From: Sporosarcina psychrophila
GTDB lineage: Bacteria; Bacillota; Bacilli; Bacillales_A; Planococcaceae
Length of the DNA stretch: 64,000 nucleotides
Reading direction: 5' to 3'
Assembly (NCBI RefSeq): GCF_001590685.1
Contig: NZ_CP014616.1
Span: forward strand, 456,501-520,500
Made by a program: the position numbers and the translations under genes. The notes under the pieces were generated by a model, which was given only the letters and a program-made list of their open reading frames with translations, was not told where the DNA came from and did not search any database. Shown here piece by piece: positions 6,013-63,040 of this stretch (the stretch's first letter is position 1; each line of letters opens with the position of its first letter).

Positions 6013-7284
6013 ATGGAATTTTTAGTCGAACGCGCAGTAATTGTGGGGGTCCATGAACAAAAGGATCAGCACTTTGAATATGCAATGGAAGAATTAAAAA
6101 ACCTTGCTAAAGCAATCGATGTTGAAGTCGTTGGAGAAGTGACGCAAAACATGGAAAAGCGTAACCCGTCTACTTATGTTGGGAAAGGGAAAATGGAAGA
6201 GATTCAGAACTTCTATGAAGAATTAGATGCTAACCTTGTTATCTTCAATGATGAATTGTCTCCGTCTCAGATTCGTAATTTGGAGCGGGAACTGGACTGT
6301 AAAGTGATTGACAGGACAATGCTCATTCTTGATATTTTCGTACGGCGTGCGAGAACGAGTGAATCTCGGATGCAAGTTGAACTTGCGCAACTGCAATACA
6401 TGCTTCCTAGACTTGTCGGTTTACGTGCATCCCTTGGTAGACAGGGCGGCGGAGCAGGCGGCGGTGTTCAGAATAAAGGGGCAGGAGAAACGAAACTTGA
6501 ACTCGATCGTCGAAAAATCGAAGACCAGATTTCCAAACTTGGCCGTGACCTTGATCATGTGAAGGATCAGCGTGAAACTCAGCGCAAGCAACGTAAAAAG
6601 AGTGGTATCCCTGTTGTTTCGATTGTCGGTTATACGAATGCTGGCAAGTCGACGATTATGAATAAATTGCTGCTGAAGATGGACGTAGACAATGCGAAGC
6701 AAGTGTATGAGGAAGATATGTTATTCGCGACACTCGATACGTCAATTCGGAAAGTGAAGCTTGAGGATAACAAAGAATTCATCTTGACGGATACAGTCGG
6801 TTTTGTTTCGAAACTGCCACACCATCTTGTAAAAGCATTCCGTTCGACATTAGAAGAAGCGCGTGATGCGGATCTCCTATTACATGTAGTGGATGTGTCG
6901 AATTCGGAACACGGCTATATGATGGAAGTAACAAATGACACATTGCAGGCAGTTGGAGTAGAGAATGTAGCGACGCTTAATATTTACAATAAAGCTGATC
7001 TTGCGGATGTTCCCTATCCAGTAGTGAGCGATGATAGTGTGTGGATTTCTGCACGTGAAGGAAAAGGATTAGATGAACTTATCGAGTTGATCAAGAAAAA
7101 GATTTTTGAACAATATAGTACATGCAAGCTACTTATTCCATTTGACCGTGGTGATATCGTGTCCTATTTGAATGACAAAGCAAACGTCAAAAGTACGGAG
7201 TATGAAGAAGATGGAACGCTGATGACTGTGGAAATGGATATTTCAGAGCGAGCCAAGATTGAAGAATTTATCGTAAGCCACTAA
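6013..7284 (+). CDS. hflX: Ribosome-associated GTPase HflX
   Basis: HflX (423 aa) is a translational GTPase-family protein that binds the 50S subunit and splits stalled or hibernating ribosomes. The N-terminal HflX domain ends in the glycine-rich linker GRQGGGAGGGVQNKG (about 143-157). The G domain follows, with G1 GYTNAGKST (206-214), G3 DTVGF and G4 NKAD. ATG 6013 is chosen because GGAAGGGG lies seven bases upstream; the upstream TTG at 5992 lies before that site. Length is normal for the family. A block of three hairpin repeats begins at the stop codon in place of a simple terminator. Confidence 0.96.
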   Translation: MEFLVERAVIVGVHEQKDQHFEYAMEELKNLAKAIDVEVVGEVTQNMEKRNPSTYVGKGKMEEIQNFYEELDANLVIFNDELSPSQIRNLERELDCKVIDRTMLILDIFVRRARTSESRMQVELAQLQYMLPRLVGLRASLGRQGGGAGGGVQNKGAGETKLELDRRKIEDQISKLGRDLDHVKDQRETQRKQRKKSGIPVVSIVGYTNAGKSTIMNKLLLKMDVDNAKQVYEEDMLFATLDTSIRKVKLEDNKEFILTDTVGFVSKLPHHLVKAFRSTLEEARDADLLLHVVDVSNSEHGYMMEVTNDTLQAVGVENVATLNIYNKADLADVPYPVVSDDSVWISAREGKGLDELIELIKKKIFEQYSTCKLLIPFDRGDIVSYLNDKANVKSTEYEEDGTLMTVEMDISERAKIEEFIVSH

Positions 7285-7400
7285 GAAAAGCTCCAGGCGC
7301 CTGCTTAGTCGCGACAGGCATAAGTCAATCCAGCGACGTGGCGTACTTTGCCACATAGCTGGATTGCTTATGACCCGAGCGGCTGGCGCCTGGAGCTAGC
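7285..7400. repeat. Hairpin repeat, type A (cluster 1, copy a)
   Basis: Element of about 116 bp with perfect 13-bp terminal inverted repeats (AGCTCCAGGCGCC at 7289-7301 and its complement at 7385-7397), a second stem GCATAAG...CTTATG, and a central GTGGC/GCCAC hairpin with loop GTACTTT. The whole element can fold into one long rod. Related copies occur at 23427, 24109 (reverse), 49810, 50115 and 59736 (reverse). Confidence 0.85.
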
Positions 7401-7407
7401 CACTAAT

Positions 7408-7527
7408 GAAAAGCGCAAGGCGCCTTGGTAGACCCGACAAGCGCTGGAGGGCCTGAAGATAAAGGCGCACTTTGCCTTTAACCTCAGGACTGAAGCGACT
7501 CGAGGGGTTAGGCGCTGGAGCTAGACA
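7408..7527. repeat. Hairpin repeat, type B (cluster 1, copy b)
   Basis: Begins GAAAAGCGCAAGGCGCC, ends GGCGCTGGAGCTAGACA, with a central AAAGGC (7461-7466)/GCCTTT (7474-7479) stem extended by CCTGA (7452-7456)/TCAGG (7484-7488). Nearly identical to the next copy. Confidence 0.85.
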
Positions 7528-7531
7528 CTAA

Positions 7532-7651
7532 GAAAAGCGCAAGCACCTTGGTAGACCCGACAAGCGGTGGAGGGCCTAAAGATAAAGGCGCACTTTGCCT
7601 TTAACCTCAGGACTGAAGCGACTCGAGGGGTTAGGCGCCTGGAGCTAGACA
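7532..7651. repeat. Hairpin repeat, type B (cluster 1, copy c)
   Basis: Second tandem type B copy, differing from copy b at a few positions (for example AAGCACC for AAGGCGCC at the left end). The gene-free interval 7285-7797 is filled by these three copies plus a terminator. Confidence 0.85.
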
Positions 7652-7697
7652 CTATTCTAAGTCCAAAAAACTCATACTTTCTTATCTTTTAAAAATC

Positions 7698-7744
7698 AAA
7701 AAACAGCACCACATGACTAGGGAGGTCATGTAGTGCTGTTTTTT
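7698..7744. terminator. Bidirectional terminator, 3' of ABC exporter
   Basis: AACAGCACCACATGAC pairs with GTCATGTAGTGCTGTT (one mismatch) around a short loop and is flanked by A and T runs. It ends the leftward ABC exporter transcript and can stop rightward readthrough from hflX. Confidence 0.85.
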
Positions 7745-7797
7745 CTATCTAAGAGAAAGGGGGTGGAATAGTTCTAGTATGCCCGCTTATATGAAAG

Positions 7798-23425: not shown

Positions 23426-23426
23426 A

Positions 23427-23544
23427 GAAAAGCGTAAGCGCCTTGGTAGAGGCGACAGGCATAAGACGGGCTAGCGAAGCAGCGTTCTTTGCTGCATAGC
23501 TGGACTGACTTATGACCCAAGCCTCTGGGCGCTGTAGCTAGACA
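23427..23544. repeat. Hairpin repeat, type A (cluster 2, copy a)
   Basis: Type A rod: AGCGCC/GGCGCT ends, AGAGGC (23448-23453) pairing with GCCTCT (23521-23526), GGCATAAG/CTTATGACC, and AGCAGC/GCTGC(A) around the loop. The sequence differs from the 7285 and 49810 copies, but the pairing is kept. Confidence 0.85.
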
Positions 23545-23549
23545 ATAAA

Positions 23550-23669
23550 GAAAAGCGCAAGCGCCTTGGTAGACCCGAAAAGCGCTGGAGGACCATAAGA
23601 GAAAGGCGCTTTTTGCCTTTAACTTAAGGACTGAAGCGACTCGAGGGGCTAGGCGCTGTAGCTAGACAA
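23550..23669. repeat. Hairpin repeat, type B (cluster 2, copy b)
   Basis: Full type B copy with AAAGGC/GCCTTT core stem, the conserved GACTGAAGCGACTCGAGGGG segment and the GCTAGACA right end. Confidence 0.85.
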
Positions 23670-23672
23670 TAA

Positions 23673-23745
23673 GAAAAGCGCAAGCGCCTTGGTAGACCCG
23701 AAAAGCGCTGGAGGGCGTTAAGAGAAAGGCGCTTTTTGCCTTTAA
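23673..23745. repeat. Hairpin repeat, type B, truncated (cluster 2, copy c)
   Basis: Matches copy b up to the core hairpin, then breaks off after GCCTTTAAC and is joined directly to the mazG-like terminator. The right half is missing. Copies a-c fill the gap 23426-23745. Confidence 0.8.
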
Positions 23746-23778
23746 CAAAAACCGTTCCCGCAAGACTGGGAACGGTTT
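23746..23778 (-). terminator. Terminator of MazG-like gene (leftward)
   Basis: AAACCGTTCCC/GGGAACGGTTT stem with an eight-base loop. Read leftward it ends in a T run. Confidence 0.8.
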
Positions 23779-24076: not shown

Positions 24077-24108
24077 ATTTATCTCATCCTTTCGACAGTT
24101 TTTCTTGA

Positions 24109-24228
24109 TGTCCAGCTACAGGCGCCAACTCCTCGGGACATTAGGCGTTTTATTGCGTGGGCTGTAGAACGCCCTCTCCACAAACCGTCGTATGCCTGTC
24201 GGAGCTAGACGGCGCCTTGTGCTTTTCT
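24109..24228. repeat. Hairpin repeat, type A-like, reverse orientation
   Basis: Reverse-strand copy: it starts CAGCTACAGGCGCC and ends GGCGCCTTGTGCTTTTC. An internal TATGCCTGTCGGAGCTAGAC segment looks like a junction of two elements. Confidence 0.7.
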
Positions 24229-33804: not shown

Positions 33805-33850
33805 AAAAAATCGGCCATGTGATCATAATGATCGCATGGCCGATTTTTTA
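33805..33850. terminator. Bidirectional terminator after dsbA-like gene
   Basis: AAAAAATCGGCCATG pairs exactly with CATGGCCGATTTTTT, with an extra GATCAT/ATGATC inner stem. It suits rightward readout from the dsbA-like gene and leftward readout from yceI. Confidence 0.9.
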
Positions 33851-33907
33851 AGTTATTTATTAAATTATAAAATCTCGAACTAGGATAAGTTACAACATAG
33901 AGATTTC

Positions 33908-34027
33908 ACGTCTAGACTCCAGCGCCTAGCCCCTCGAGTCGCTTCAGGCTTGCTGATAAAGGCAAAGAACGCCTTTCCCTTCAAGCCTTCCGGCGCTTGT
34001 CGGGGCTTAGCAGGCGCTTGCGCTTTT
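33908..34027. repeat. Hairpin repeat, type B, reverse orientation
   Basis: Reverse copy with core AAAGGC (33958-33963)/GCCTTT (33971-33976) and flanking stem AGGCTTG (33946-33952)/CAAGCCT (33982-33988). The flanking stem differs from other copies but is still paired. Confidence 0.82.
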
Positions 34028-34031
34028 GTTA

Positions 34032-35718: not shown

Positions 35719-35763
35719 GTTTTTTTAGGAAACTATATGTTTTTTGACGTAGAGCAGTGTTTA

Positions 35764-35896
35764 GGCTCCAGGCATCAATCTCAACACAAAGTCGCAAATT
35801 TAGACTGTCTTCTTTGAGTTTCAGTCCTTTATTTAAAGGCAGAGATCGCCTTTTTCTCCAGCGCTTGTTGGGGTTAAAAGGCGCCTTGCGCTTTTC
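35764..35896. repeat. Hairpin repeat, type B, diverged, reverse orientation
   Basis: Core stem AAAGGC/GCCTTT with loop AGAGATC and right end GGCGCCTTGCGCTTTTC. The left end (GGCTCCAGGC) is diverged from the other copies. Confidence 0.7.
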
Positions 35897-35899
35897 TTA

Positions 35900-36574: not shown

Positions 36575-36938
36575 GACGGTAGTCACCTCTTAATTATATT
36601 TTGGTTAGTCGAATTCATGTTAGAAGTTTAGTACTGATTGAAAACCAAACAATTATATATGAAAATGAACGATTTGACAAGATGCGAATGCTTCAAAGTG
36701 CTAAGAGTATGGTAATAGTGTATAATTTATTGTGTAATCTCTTTGAGCTTCCCCTAATACTATTATCTATAGCTCCCTATTATCCCGCCAGTCACGCTGA
36801 AGGTCAAGTTTGCCCAATATAATAATGAGTTTTACAAGTAATACATAATATGGATTGTGTATTTCTGTAGATTTTCAGGTGGTTTATTACAACTGTTTTA
36901 AAAGGTAAGAAGGTACAAATTTTTCTACATGGGCCGAT

Positions 36939-37081
36939 GTCTAGACTTCAGACTTCCTTCCATTAGCCTCGGTCTGGCTGAAAAGGCTTAGCACGCCTTT
37001 ATCTTCAAGATTACCAGTAGGGAGGGTCCGAACTTAATCCCTTCTACTTATCGGGGCTAAACCGCGCCTTGCGCTTTTCTT
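36939..37081. repeat. Hairpin repeat, diverged, reverse orientation
   Basis: Recognised by the GTCTAGACTTCAG left end, AAGGC...GCCTTT core, CTTATCGGGGC and the GCGCCTTGCGCTTTTC right end. It is the most diverged large copy. The rest of 36575-37108 holds AT-rich DNA with the leftward gene's promoter region and nothing else that I can support. Confidence 0.65.
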
Positions 37082-49808: not shown

Positions 49809-49809
49809 A

Positions 49810-49927
49810 GAAAAGCGGAAGCGGCCCGTATAGACGCGACAGGCATAAGACGGACCGGCGACGCGGTGCTCTTCCCGCACAGCTGGTCTGGCTTATGACC
49901 CGAGCGTCTGGCCGCTGTAGCTAGACA
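49810..49927. repeat. Hairpin repeat, type A (cluster 3, copy a)
   Basis: Type A copy in which the end stem is AGCGGCC (49820-49826)/GGCCGCT (49910-49916) and the next stem AGACGC (49832-49837)/GCGTCT (49904-49909). Both differ in sequence from the 7285 and 23427 copies but stay paired. Confidence 0.85.
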
Positions 49928-49934
49928 ATATAAG

Positions 49935-50113
49935 GAATGCAGCTTAAGTGCGCGACGTCCTGTCGCAACAGCTGCATGACCTACTTCGTGTAGGCCTAAG
50001 CTCCAGGCGCCGTCTAGCTCCGAAAAGCGCTGGAGGTCTTTCAGAAAAAGGCGTACTTTGCCTTTATCTGAAAGAATGAAGCGACTCGAGGGGCTGGCGC
50101 CTGTAGCTAGACA
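49935..50113. repeat. Hairpin repeat, composite type B (cluster 3, copy b)
   Basis: A type B body preceded by extra hairpins (GCGAC/GTCGC at about 49952-49966 and CCTAC/GTAGG at 49980-49994). Core stem AAAGGC (50047-50052)/GCCTTT (50060-50065) with flank TCTTTCAGA (50037-50045)/TCTGAAAGA (50067-50075), a perfect pair. Confidence 0.8.
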
Positions 50114-50114
50114 A

Positions 50115-50257
50115 GAAAAGCGGAAGCGGCCCGCATAGACGCGACAGGCATAAGACGGACCGGCGACGCGGTGTTCTTTACCCGGGAAGGATGCAGTTCA
50201 ATCCTTCCTAGCTGGTCTGGCTTATGACCCGAGCGTCTGGCCGCTGAAGCTAGACAC
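50115..50257. repeat. Hairpin repeat, type A with inserted loop hairpin (cluster 3, copy c)
   Basis: Same arms as the 49810 copy, but the terminal loop is replaced by a longer sequence that itself forms GGAAGGAT/ATCCTTCC. Together, copies a-c fill the interval 49809-50260. Confidence 0.82.
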
Positions 50258-50293
50258 TAAAAAAGGGATGCCGACTAATGTCGACATCCCTTT
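50258..50293 (-). terminator. Terminator of lmo0937-like gene (leftward)
   Basis: GGGATG-N-CGAC/GTCG-N-CATCCC stem with a T tail on the minus strand. Confidence 0.8.
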
Positions 50294-55985: not shown

Positions 55986-56897
55986 ATGAAGAAGAAAATT
56001 GGATTAGTTACGATGTTAATGACCACTGCCGTTTTTCTAAGCGGTTGTGCAGGCATCGAGAACAAAGAAGGTACATTTTATAATCTTTTCGTTAAGCCGA
56101 TGGATTGGTTACTGCATTTTTTCAGTGATTTCTTCAATGGGAATTACGGCCTGTCGATTATACTCATTACGGTATTAATCCGGTTGGTCCTAATGCCGCT
56201 TATGCTGAAAAACTATAAGTCGCAACAGAATATGAAAGTTAAAATGGATGCGCTCCGCCCTGAGATGGAAGACATTCAAAAGCGTTTGAAAGAAGCAAAA
56301 GAAAAAGAACAAAAAGATGAGCAAGTGAAGCTTCAGCAAGAAATGATGGGACTTTATTCGAAGCATGGTGTCAATCCACTTAATATGGGTTGTCTTCCGT
56401 TAGTCATCCAGATGCCAATCATCATGGGTCTCTACTTTGCTATCCTCAATTCTACTGAAGTACAAACACATGAGTTTCTTTGGTTTAATCTCGGAGAGCC
56501 GGATATGATTATGATGGTTCTTGCTGGTGCAGTTTACTTCGTCCAAGCACGTGTATCACTATGGACAATGCCGGAGCAGCAGAAGAAACAGATGAAAGCA
56601 TTTATTTACTTATCGCCAGTTATGATTATGTTCATTTCATTCAAGGCGATGGCAGCACTACCCCTTTACTGGGCAGTTGGGGGACTTCTCCTTATCTTCC
56701 AAACGTACTTAGGCCGCAAGTTCTATTACAAGCATCCTGAACTGGTTGTAGAAGATGCTGAAGAGGTTATAAATGCTGAAGAAGTAAAAGAAGTAAAAGA
56801 AGTAAAAGAAGTAAAAGAAGTAAAAGAAGTAAAAGAAGTAAAAGAAGTAAAAGAAGTAAAAGAAGTAAAAAAGATAGACACTAAAGACGATAAATGA
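55986..56897 (+). CDS. yidC: Membrane protein insertase YidC/SpoIIIJ family with (EVK)10 tail
   Basis: YidC/Oxa1-type insertase (303 aa). It begins with a lipoprotein signal (lipobox LSGC, Cys21) and has the hydrophilic-groove Arg66 in TM1 (VLIRLVLMP), a cytoplasmic helical hairpin (about 85-115) and five helices. It inserts small membrane proteins with or without Sec. GTG 55971 is possible, but AAGGTGA four bases before ATG 55986 favours the latter. The C-terminus carries ten exact copies of EVK, encoded by a 9-bp tandem repeat. B. subtilis has two paralogues (SpoIIIJ and YqjG); this one is not next to rnpA, so it is likely the second. Confidence 0.9.
   Translation: MKKKIGLVTMLMTTAVFLSGCAGIENKEGTFYNLFVKPMDWLLHFFSDFFNGNYGLSIILITVLIRLVLMPLMLKNYKSQQNMKVKMDALRPEMEDIQKRLKEAKEKEQKDEQVKLQQEMMGLYSKHGVNPLNMGCLPLVIQMPIIMGLYFAILNSTEVQTHEFLWFNLGEPDMIMMVLAGAVYFVQARVSLWTMPEQQKKQMKAFIYLSPVMIMFISFKAMAALPLYWAVGGLLLIFQTYLGRKFYYKHPELVVEDAEEVINAEEVKEVKEVKEVKEVKEVKEVKEVKEVKEVKKIDTKDDK
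56781..56870 (+). repeat. 9-bp tandem repeat (GAAGTAAAA x10)
   Basis: Ten perfect, uninterrupted copies of GAAGTAAAA, in frame with yidC. Because the unit is a multiple of three, expansion or loss by slippage changes the tail length without a frameshift. Confidence 0.95.
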
Positions 56898-59703: not shown

Positions 59704-59806
59704 ATTTAGACTCCAGACATCTTGCGCTTTTCTTAGTGTCTAGCTTCAGGCGCCAGCCGCTCGACTTATGCCTGTCGCGTCTAGCGGGCGTATTAAGCCT
59801 TTCTTA
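59704..59806. repeat. Hairpin repeat remnants (type B end plus deleted type A), reverse
   Basis: 59704-59733 looks like the two ends of a type B copy with the middle missing. 59736-59803 is a type A copy lacking the central stem-loop (CGCTCGACTTATGCCTGTCG joins the outer arms directly). Confidence 0.65.
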
Positions 59807-62820: not shown

Positions 62821-63040
62821 TCAATCGATCATAAAGTGTGTTTGACCGATCATATAACACTGCAATCGAGCATAAATTTGCTTGACCGATCATATAATCG
62901 TGCAATCGATCATAAACTTGCTTGACCGATCATATAACACTGCAATCGAGCATAAATTTGCTTGACCGATCGTATAACGCTGCAATCGAGCATAAATTTT
63001 CTCGACCGATCATATATCACTTCAGACCAATCATAAAACA
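62821..63040. repeat. 40-bp tandem repeat array
   Basis: Five units of about 40 bp starting at 62822, 62863, 62903, 62943 and 62983, each made of two about 20-bp halves (AATCGAGCATAAATTT and GACCGATCATATAA). It ends in CAGACCAATCATAAAAC, which is also found at 10715. Confidence 0.9.

Follow-up and report, generated by a model that had tools for sequence, protein, structure and literature searches.

In this work, we asked what the rod-shaped hairpins behind three genes of Sporosarcina psychrophila are and how they came to stand there. A preliminary description, made from the sequence alone, had noted copies of one kind (type A) at positions 7285, 23427 and 49810 of the window, which is the whole analysed stretch of 64,000 nucleotides, and had left it open whether they are RNA structures of 3' untranslated regions or mobile hairpins of the REP or MITE kind. 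The three copies and all six stem pairs quoted for them were confirmed in the sequence, and the predicted folds of their rods (L006-L008) reach -73.6, -56.9 and -61.3 kcal/mol, respectively. The names given to the upstream genes also fit, as HflX, OpuAC and GNAT domains were found in their products. On the other hand, the distance of 2-5 bases from the stop codons had to be corrected to 0-1 nt, with reading frames ending at 7284, 23425 and 49808 and heads starting at 7285, 23427 and 49810.

The hairpin family and its fold

The hairpins noted in three places are part of a large, previously unnamed repeat family. The motif GAAAAGCGNAAG was matched 15 times in the window with at most one mismatch (1.66 expected), and GACAGGCATAAG, at the same tolerance, 84 times in the genome (56 exact) compared with 29 for the reversed control. 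The genome-wide extraction with a covariance model that had been proposed was then possible with a model (R1) trained on 18 canonical copies, which gave at least 124 matches at E<=0.01 in the S. psychrophila genome (G000). Removing two opposite-strand shadows leaves 122 units, grouped in 86 clusters, as a lower bound, since 150 of 834 candidates were scored with R1. Units across the family have common ends, which read roughly GAAAAGCGnAAG (5') and GCTAGACA(c/a)TAA (3'), and between them lie inner hairpins of at least two kinds, types A and B. They form head-to-tail arrays of about 123 nt per unit whose members are not alike, and the subfamily that includes the type A unit at hflX, hereafter GAAAAGC, has the head GAAAAGCG and the tail CTTATACTTTCTTA. 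Some units are interrupted by other hairpins; Bacillaceae-1-like sequence was recognised by eye within three type A units (L018, L024, L025). R1 matches were found in 39 of 41 Sporosarcina genomes, including that of S. psychrophila, and among the matches listed the exact two-sided pattern occurs in Planococcus, Mesobacillus, Neobacillus, Jeotgalibacillus and others. A search of the literature returned no description of this repeat family or of its link to IS91 set out below.

In the window, the array at 7284-7690 has the order A-B-B plus tail. Its first unit, of type A, lies directly 3' of the hflX stop codon (7284..7406, plus strand; 126.9 bits with R1) and carries the -73.6 kcal/mol fold; the site is without a unit in G014 and G027. 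It is followed by a type B unit with the same ends and a different inner hairpin (7407..7531, plus; 67.2 bits), and by another type B unit (7531..7655, plus), which is absent from the window R1 list and was placed by the genome search at G000:C1:464031-464155 with 55.7 bits. The array is closed by the 3' tail TTCTAAGTCCAAAAAACTCATACTTTCTTATCTTTT (7655..7690, plus; tail pattern match at 464166-464190), after which come an A-run and the hflX terminator; in reverse complement, this tail forms the left end of an IS91-family element in G006. Directly 3' of the opuAC-like gene, a type A unit (23426..23548, plus; 135.3 bits) and a type B unit (23549..23672, plus; 73.2 bits) precede a truncated type B unit, which was read from the sequence and stops at a terminator-like hairpin (23673..23746, plus; boundary by eye). 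A single tail-less type A unit at 24105..24228 (minus; 88 bits) bears the direct repeat TCAAGAAAA at both ends. The ACAAAAGC subfamily is represented by a unit 3' of a stop codon (33905..34029, minus; 74.5 bits; included in the heads model described below), with an IS91-like tail (..CTTATCCTAGTTCGAGATTTTATAATTT..) at 33845..33904 (minus; boundary approximate; copy 490405 of the tail model). Two degenerate units follow on the minus strand: one, possibly chimeric, is 3' of a stop codon (35754..35897; 25.9 bits; G031 site without a unit) and the other has a tail (36900..37080; just 12.1 bits, E 0.65; tail pattern match at 36900-36924). Behind the GNAT gene, a type A unit directly 3' of it (49809..49931, plus; 129.8 bits), a type B-like unit (49999..50113, plus; 61.7 bits) and a type A unit interrupted by an additional hairpin (50114..50260, plus; 114.4 bits; fold L009) were found, with a Bacillaceae-1 RNA (RF01690; 49928..49994, plus; 78 bits) lodged between units. 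A type A unit with an internal deletion, 3' of a stop codon, is the last in the window (59733..59804, minus; 39.6 bits).

At the type A and B units of the window, no Rfam match above the gathering score was obtained, RF01690 at 49928-49994 being the only hit; two matches at 7688-7750 were far below the cut-offs and were rejected. Repeats of other kinds were also observed, namely tandem direct 40-bp repeats (TTGCTTGACCGATCATATAA..) past a gene end at 62839-63038, and about ten 9-bp repeats (GTAAAAGAA) inside an open reading frame at 56739-56879, where the equivalent stretch is shorter in G009 and G031.

Compensatory changes within the rod had been noted in the preliminary description, and they are present in a conserved rod across the family. 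Among 53 copies (51 distinct; R1 E<=1e-20, from 62 sources; alignment fitted to the structure), two-sided change was observed in 28 of 35 pairs and 94.4% of cells pair, and the covariation score of 0.382 compares with 0.171 for shuffled alignments (reached by 0 of 500) and 0.02-0.10 for slid controls, kinship among copies being incompletely controlled in these statistics. In an alignment of 18 copies made from sequence only, two-sided change was found in 14 of 35 pairs, with a score of 0.313 versus 0.150. Thus, the family is not made up of identical recent duplicates alone, and its covariation exceeds the controls, with the same reservation about phylogeny. The further statement that structure, not sequence, is selected holds in its first half only: structure is kept, as the covariation indicates, but the rod is not free in sequence, since almost no variation is seen in GACAGGCATAAG/CTTATGACCCGAG and at several unpaired positions.

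The fold also has a direction. When 49 copies were aligned by sequence, their consensus folded at -33.1 kcal/mol compared with -15.0 kcal/mol for the reverse complement. With exclusion of pairs that are most often a wobble, G·T and A·C combinations amount to 78 and 17 cells, respectively, and to 21 and 34 in the reverse complement's own consensus; when every pair is counted, the values are 99 and 18 versus 62 and 34. The smaller set of 18 copies behaves in the same way, with -40.3 versus -23.6 kcal/mol and G·T and A·C counts of 34 and 9 versus 22 and 12. The folding strand is the element strand, whether the folding molecule is RNA or single-stranded DNA.

Insertion sites and genomic placement

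The suggestion that the hairpins are dispersed, mobile and MITE-like was borne out by empty sites in relatives, which show insertion of whole units. For this comparison, 464 kb of the S. psychrophila genome was set against G031 (475 kb) and G014 (465 kb); for the window portion of it, 60-76 kb of G009, G040 and G006 were used as well. The tail-less unit at 24105-24228 is a clean single-unit insertion, with the site empty in G009 and G031, and the insertion at 36.9-37.1 kb of the window is missing from the same two genomes. At genome position 144208, the site is empty in G031 and G014, and one copy in G014 has an empty matching site in G040. The hflX site was read by eye over 240 nt in each of 30 genomes, including that of S. 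psychrophila: a unit or remnant is present in nine (G000, G009, G002, G031, G037, G039, G032, G023, G004), one is uncertain (G033) and 20 have none. Tailed insertions are flanked on both sides by YTAA, which reads CTAA at 144208 and TTAA at hflX and at 36.9-37.1 kb of the window (by eye). The tail-less insertion of G014 relative to G040, in contrast, has a duplication no longer than 1 bp.

Units are placed in a characteristic manner. Of the 86 clusters, 24 start -3 to +5 nt from the stop codon of a same-strand predicted gene; for rough orientation, 400 kb of sequence contains 974 intergenic YTAA sites, of which 67 are stop codons. Thirty-six of the 86 are antisense, lying between two genes that are both on the other strand. 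Within 130 nt, an A-tract and then a hairpin were found on the 3' side of 22 of the 86 clusters, on the mirrored 5' side of nine, and at 29 of 400 random intergenic points. Moreover, 57 of the 86 clusters are on the strand opposite the leading one (origin near 0 and terminus near 2.34 Mb, from GC skew), a bias that is suggestive only, as it is confounded by gene orientation.

Signs of recent activity were found in G223, in which IS91 copies are 98.7-100% identical and R1 has 28 matches. Twenty of these were fetched, and 13 proved to be ACAAAAGC-type type A units and the other seven a separate subfamily. The 13 type A copies are near-identical, nine of them letter for letter over 125 nt; they begin with GAACAAAAGC and their tails read to CCTAAGTAA or CCTAAGCAA. 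An A-run of at least five follows 12 of the 13 directly, and GAAC, which could belong to the target or to the element, is present at all 13. A perfect stem of at least 6 within 22 nt was found at five of the 13, and for ten of them a hairpin is predicted within the 45 nt that follow the unit. The A-tract is the firm part of the target context and the terminator the softer part, because hairpins are also predicted in 74 of 180 control stretches from the same loci. The other seven fetched units (L470-L472, L475-L478) form the TGAAATGCC subfamily and lie beside a sequence that looks like the 3' terminus of 23S rRNA genes.

The placement data bear directly on the possibility that the rod is a 3'-UTR RNA element of the host, kept for the protection or processing of transcripts and spread only incidentally. 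Strong covariation, a fold confined to one strand and the frequent start of clusters at same-strand stop codons all agree with such a role, as does the parallel with bcr3 of B. cereus, which is reported to correlate with longer mRNA half-life when co-transcribed (PMC3446304). However, a transcript across the antisense clusters would carry the complement, and the insertions, arrays, nesting and near-identical recent copies speak for mobility, as do ends that match those of IS91 elements. We regard a host RNA element as improbable, and, taken together with the antisense clusters, the one-strand fold agrees no less well with a single-stranded intermediate of transposition than with a role in mRNA.

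Ends of the units and of IS91-family elements

A 3' tail ending in CTTATACTTTCTTATCTTTT follows many units, with 28 matches in the S. psychrophila genome and 0 in the reversed controls. Eighteen of the 28 lie outside R1 matches; read by eye, these sites resemble units, partial units or deletion derivatives, and no recognised transposase gene was seen at them. Tails of this type occur in 6 of 41 genus genomes, with 63 matches beyond S. psychrophila; 24 of the 63 were read, and a unit end lies within 60 nt in 19 and in five it does not. Among these five is L410 in G006, where a ACAAAAGC unit is found farther upstream. L422 in G031 (C3, about 189 kb), also one of the five, is a different insert of several hundred nt that likewise ends in CTTATACTTTCTTATCTTTT.

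The link to IS91 comes from two subfamilies. In G006, the left end of an IS91-family element, whose frame has one internal stop, is the reverse complement of a GAAAAGC-type tail (E 2.8e-5). The right end of that element is lost at the contig end, and the autonomous partner of the GAAAAGC subfamily is known from its left end alone; this subfamily, with only one end of its partner, is the weakest link in the argument. A terminal module of about 60 nt (GGATTGTGRCRGGC plus tail) was also observed in G006 at L410, L415, L420 and L425, once at the left end of an IS91 gene. In G014, where the borders were defined by comparing six copies, the IS91 element read backwards starts with AAGAACAAAAGCGCTAAAGCGCC and finishes with GTTATCCACAAGTCGAGAACTTTATAATTTCCTAGACAA, and the ACAAAAGC subfamily of S. 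psychrophila does likewise. Profile models were built from S. psychrophila ACAAAAGC copies only, with seven heads and six tails (one tail looks unrelated), and they matched the G014 borders in the expected orientation in all six copies (heads E 0.0013-0.0042, tails E 0.0024-0.0057). In G223, heads matched in 8 of 8 copies (E 0.006-0.02) and tails in 8 of 8 (E 2e-4 to 5e-4); three of these eight copies (L451, L462, L463) have about 3 kb in common and do not count as separate insertion events. When the recent G223 units were compared with gaps to the IS91 ends of the same genome, 36 of 42 positions were identical on the 3' side and 20 of 22 on the 5' side (0 of 2000 shuffles each). In G209, from another genus, tails matched in 2 of 2 copies (E 6e-5, 2e-4) and heads in 0 of 2; the heads match at an IS91 relic in G035 is weak (E 0.62), and neither head nor tail matched at the borders of the distant IS91 of G186 (four copies) or of the single copies in G054, G136 and G041. 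At L456 of G186, two head-like matches (E 0.0025, 0.02) lie upstream of the IS91 gene, away from the right border. The transposases were placed in the IS91 family by PF04986 together with PF14319 and by NF033538 of NCBIfam, which scored 286.8 and 273.6 bits at a cut-off of 125. No rod was found inside full IS91 copies at 19 loci, where the only R1 match is the neighbouring unit at L441 of G014, in tandem with an IS91 copy.

By eye, no terminal inverted repeats were seen at the recent G223 copies or at the IS91 borders. This bears on the second alternative, a classic MITE with short inverted ends that is moved by a DDE transposase and makes a 3-4 bp YTAA duplication. The CTAA and TTAA flanks of the tailed insertions speak in its favour, and YTAA at these sites could be a true 3-4 bp duplication, which would be unexpected for IS91. 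On the other hand, the 5' and 3' ends of the recent G223 copies show no inverted repeat, the tail-less site in G014 is without such a duplication and the ends match those of an HUH element; once the last two points had emerged, a DDE-type MITE was set aside as very unlikely.

The source of transposase was sought in S. psychrophila and elsewhere. The REP-like reading of the preliminary description, in which RAYT or some other Y1 transposase of the IS200/IS605 group would move the palindromes, might have drawn on the single-strand fold, the extragenic hairpins and the Y1 genes, many of about 200 aa, of 31 of 41 genus genomes, but it was rejected as hardly credible, since S. psychrophila itself has no Y1_Tnp gene and R1 found a unit, weakly, near only 1 (L370) of 20 loci of relatives (e.g. 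L370-L389) labelled RAYT-like by length (about 200 aa). A Y2_Tnp or IS91-family transposase was likewise not found in the S. psychrophila genome. The elements there are probably stranded, because neither a Y1 nor a Y2 transposase was found in it. IS91-family transposases were detected in three of the 41 genomes of the genus and, at family level, in eight of 200, whereas units are present in 39 of 41 genus genomes, so there is no genome-by-genome tie; conversely, 2 of 8 IS91-bearing genomes have no unit. Such a mismatch is expected if the source is often lost, and it would be seen equally if the link to IS91 were wrong. A plasmid search with the transposase gave 4530 records, all below 60% identity and left aside in the analysis of ends, and no relative was found among viral contigs.

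We hypothesize that the elements are non-autonomous derivatives of IS91-family (Y2 HUH) transposons that move as rolling circles and insert 5' of A-tracts by stop codons or terminators, a reading that we hold with considerable confidence. The sequence evidence behind it consists of the shared ends, the insertions relative to empty sites, the near-identical recent copies, the A-tract context and the one-strand fold; from these we infer that the elements move by rolling circle and in trans and that the rod acts in a single-stranded intermediate. Read in the direction of the element, the 5' head (GAACAAAAGCGC.. or GAAAAGCG..) would correspond, in reverse complement, to the right end of IS91, which by analogy may be the replication-origin end, and the 3' tail likewise to the left end, with the rod hairpin in place of the transposase gene. 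A transposase supplied by a full element elsewhere would nick one strand at the head and peel it off, until the tail or another end-like sequence is reached. The strand would then be inserted 5' of an A-tract resembling the element's own head, and such A-tracts are present in the interval from stop codon to terminator and also where further copies have their heads. A target of this kind would explain the frequent position at stop codons, the terminators nearby and the tandem arrays.

IS801, of the IS91 family, is described as an element without proper terminal inverted repeats that uses the sites GAAC, GGAC, CAAG and CGAC, acts in trans, gives one-ended miniature products and captures neighbouring DNA, its right end being assumed essential (PMC3189936). 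Arrays, tail-less units and placement would follow from IS801-like behaviour, and the tail-less units may, by analogy only, be one-ended transposition products. At the sites of 67 first units of S. psychrophila with a readable head, TAAG is the commonest tetranucleotide (23), with CAAG in four and GAAC in one.

Related systems and biological meaning

Among known systems, the units are close to IS91 and IS801 and to the one-ended miniature products of this family. Both ends are common to ACAAAAGC units and the IS91 elements of G014 and G223, inverted ends were not seen in either, and GAAC or CAAG adjoins AAAAGC in some unit copies. The units differ in having a covarying rod of 120 nt that is absent from the IS, in their high copy number, in their arrangement in arrays and before A-tracts, and in that a transposase was not found in their own genome. 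Non-autonomous Helitrons are gene-less rolling-circle HUH elements too, with the target AT and a single small 3' hairpin, but they are eukaryotic. The BOX elements of pneumococci have a modular head-repeat-tail organisation similar to the layout of the units and differ in sequence and host. We know of no IS91 link for BOX elements, and of no transposase that would link repeats of the bcr1, Efa-1 and Bhal-1 type to the present family. The B. cereus repeat bcr1, Efa-1 from E. faecalis and Bhal-1 from B. halodurans are listed as short, structured, multi-copy families (PMC2267715, PMC3733652), and the units are likened to these MITE-like hairpin repeats by description only. GTAG REPs are single-strand palindromes moved by the HUH enzyme RAYT (PMC3733652); the enzyme is Y1 rather than Y2, the units have the 120-nt rod, and RAYT is not associated with them. 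The main text of a review of prokaryotic MITEs does not contain IS91 (PMC10969869).

In PMC2864571, Bacillaceae-1 is merely one row of a table. In the genomes searched here, this RNA (RF01690) has a high copy number, with 73 matches in S. psychrophila and at least 94 in G009, and it is present in 35 of 41 genus genomes. It is possible that Bacillaceae-1 is a mobile hairpin and not an sRNA gene. A wider reading, which we put forward only tentatively and consider rather doubtful as a whole, slightly more so in view of the hairpin predictions in control stretches, is that this IS91 lineage lands at the T-tract of intrinsic terminators, that its passengers depend on a large rod, folded in the strand being transferred, as a signal in cis, and that Bacillaceae-1 is among such DNA passengers.

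The IS91 connection provides a likely engine for a repeat family that occurs in nearly all Sporosarcina genomes sampled and also in several further genera of Bacillales, and it suggests that A-tracts by stop codons and terminators are a safe landing site for rolling-circle transposons. G223, with near-identical copies of both IS91 and units, is a genome in which movement could be tested directly. Furthermore, compensatory changes, which are usually taken as proof of a functional RNA, can arise from a mobile DNA element. If the wider reading is true, the covariation of the rod would record selection on a single-stranded DNA intermediate and not on RNA, and DNA passengers of this kind would account for some of the "structured RNAs" known from Bacillales, with Bacillaceae-1 as one of them.
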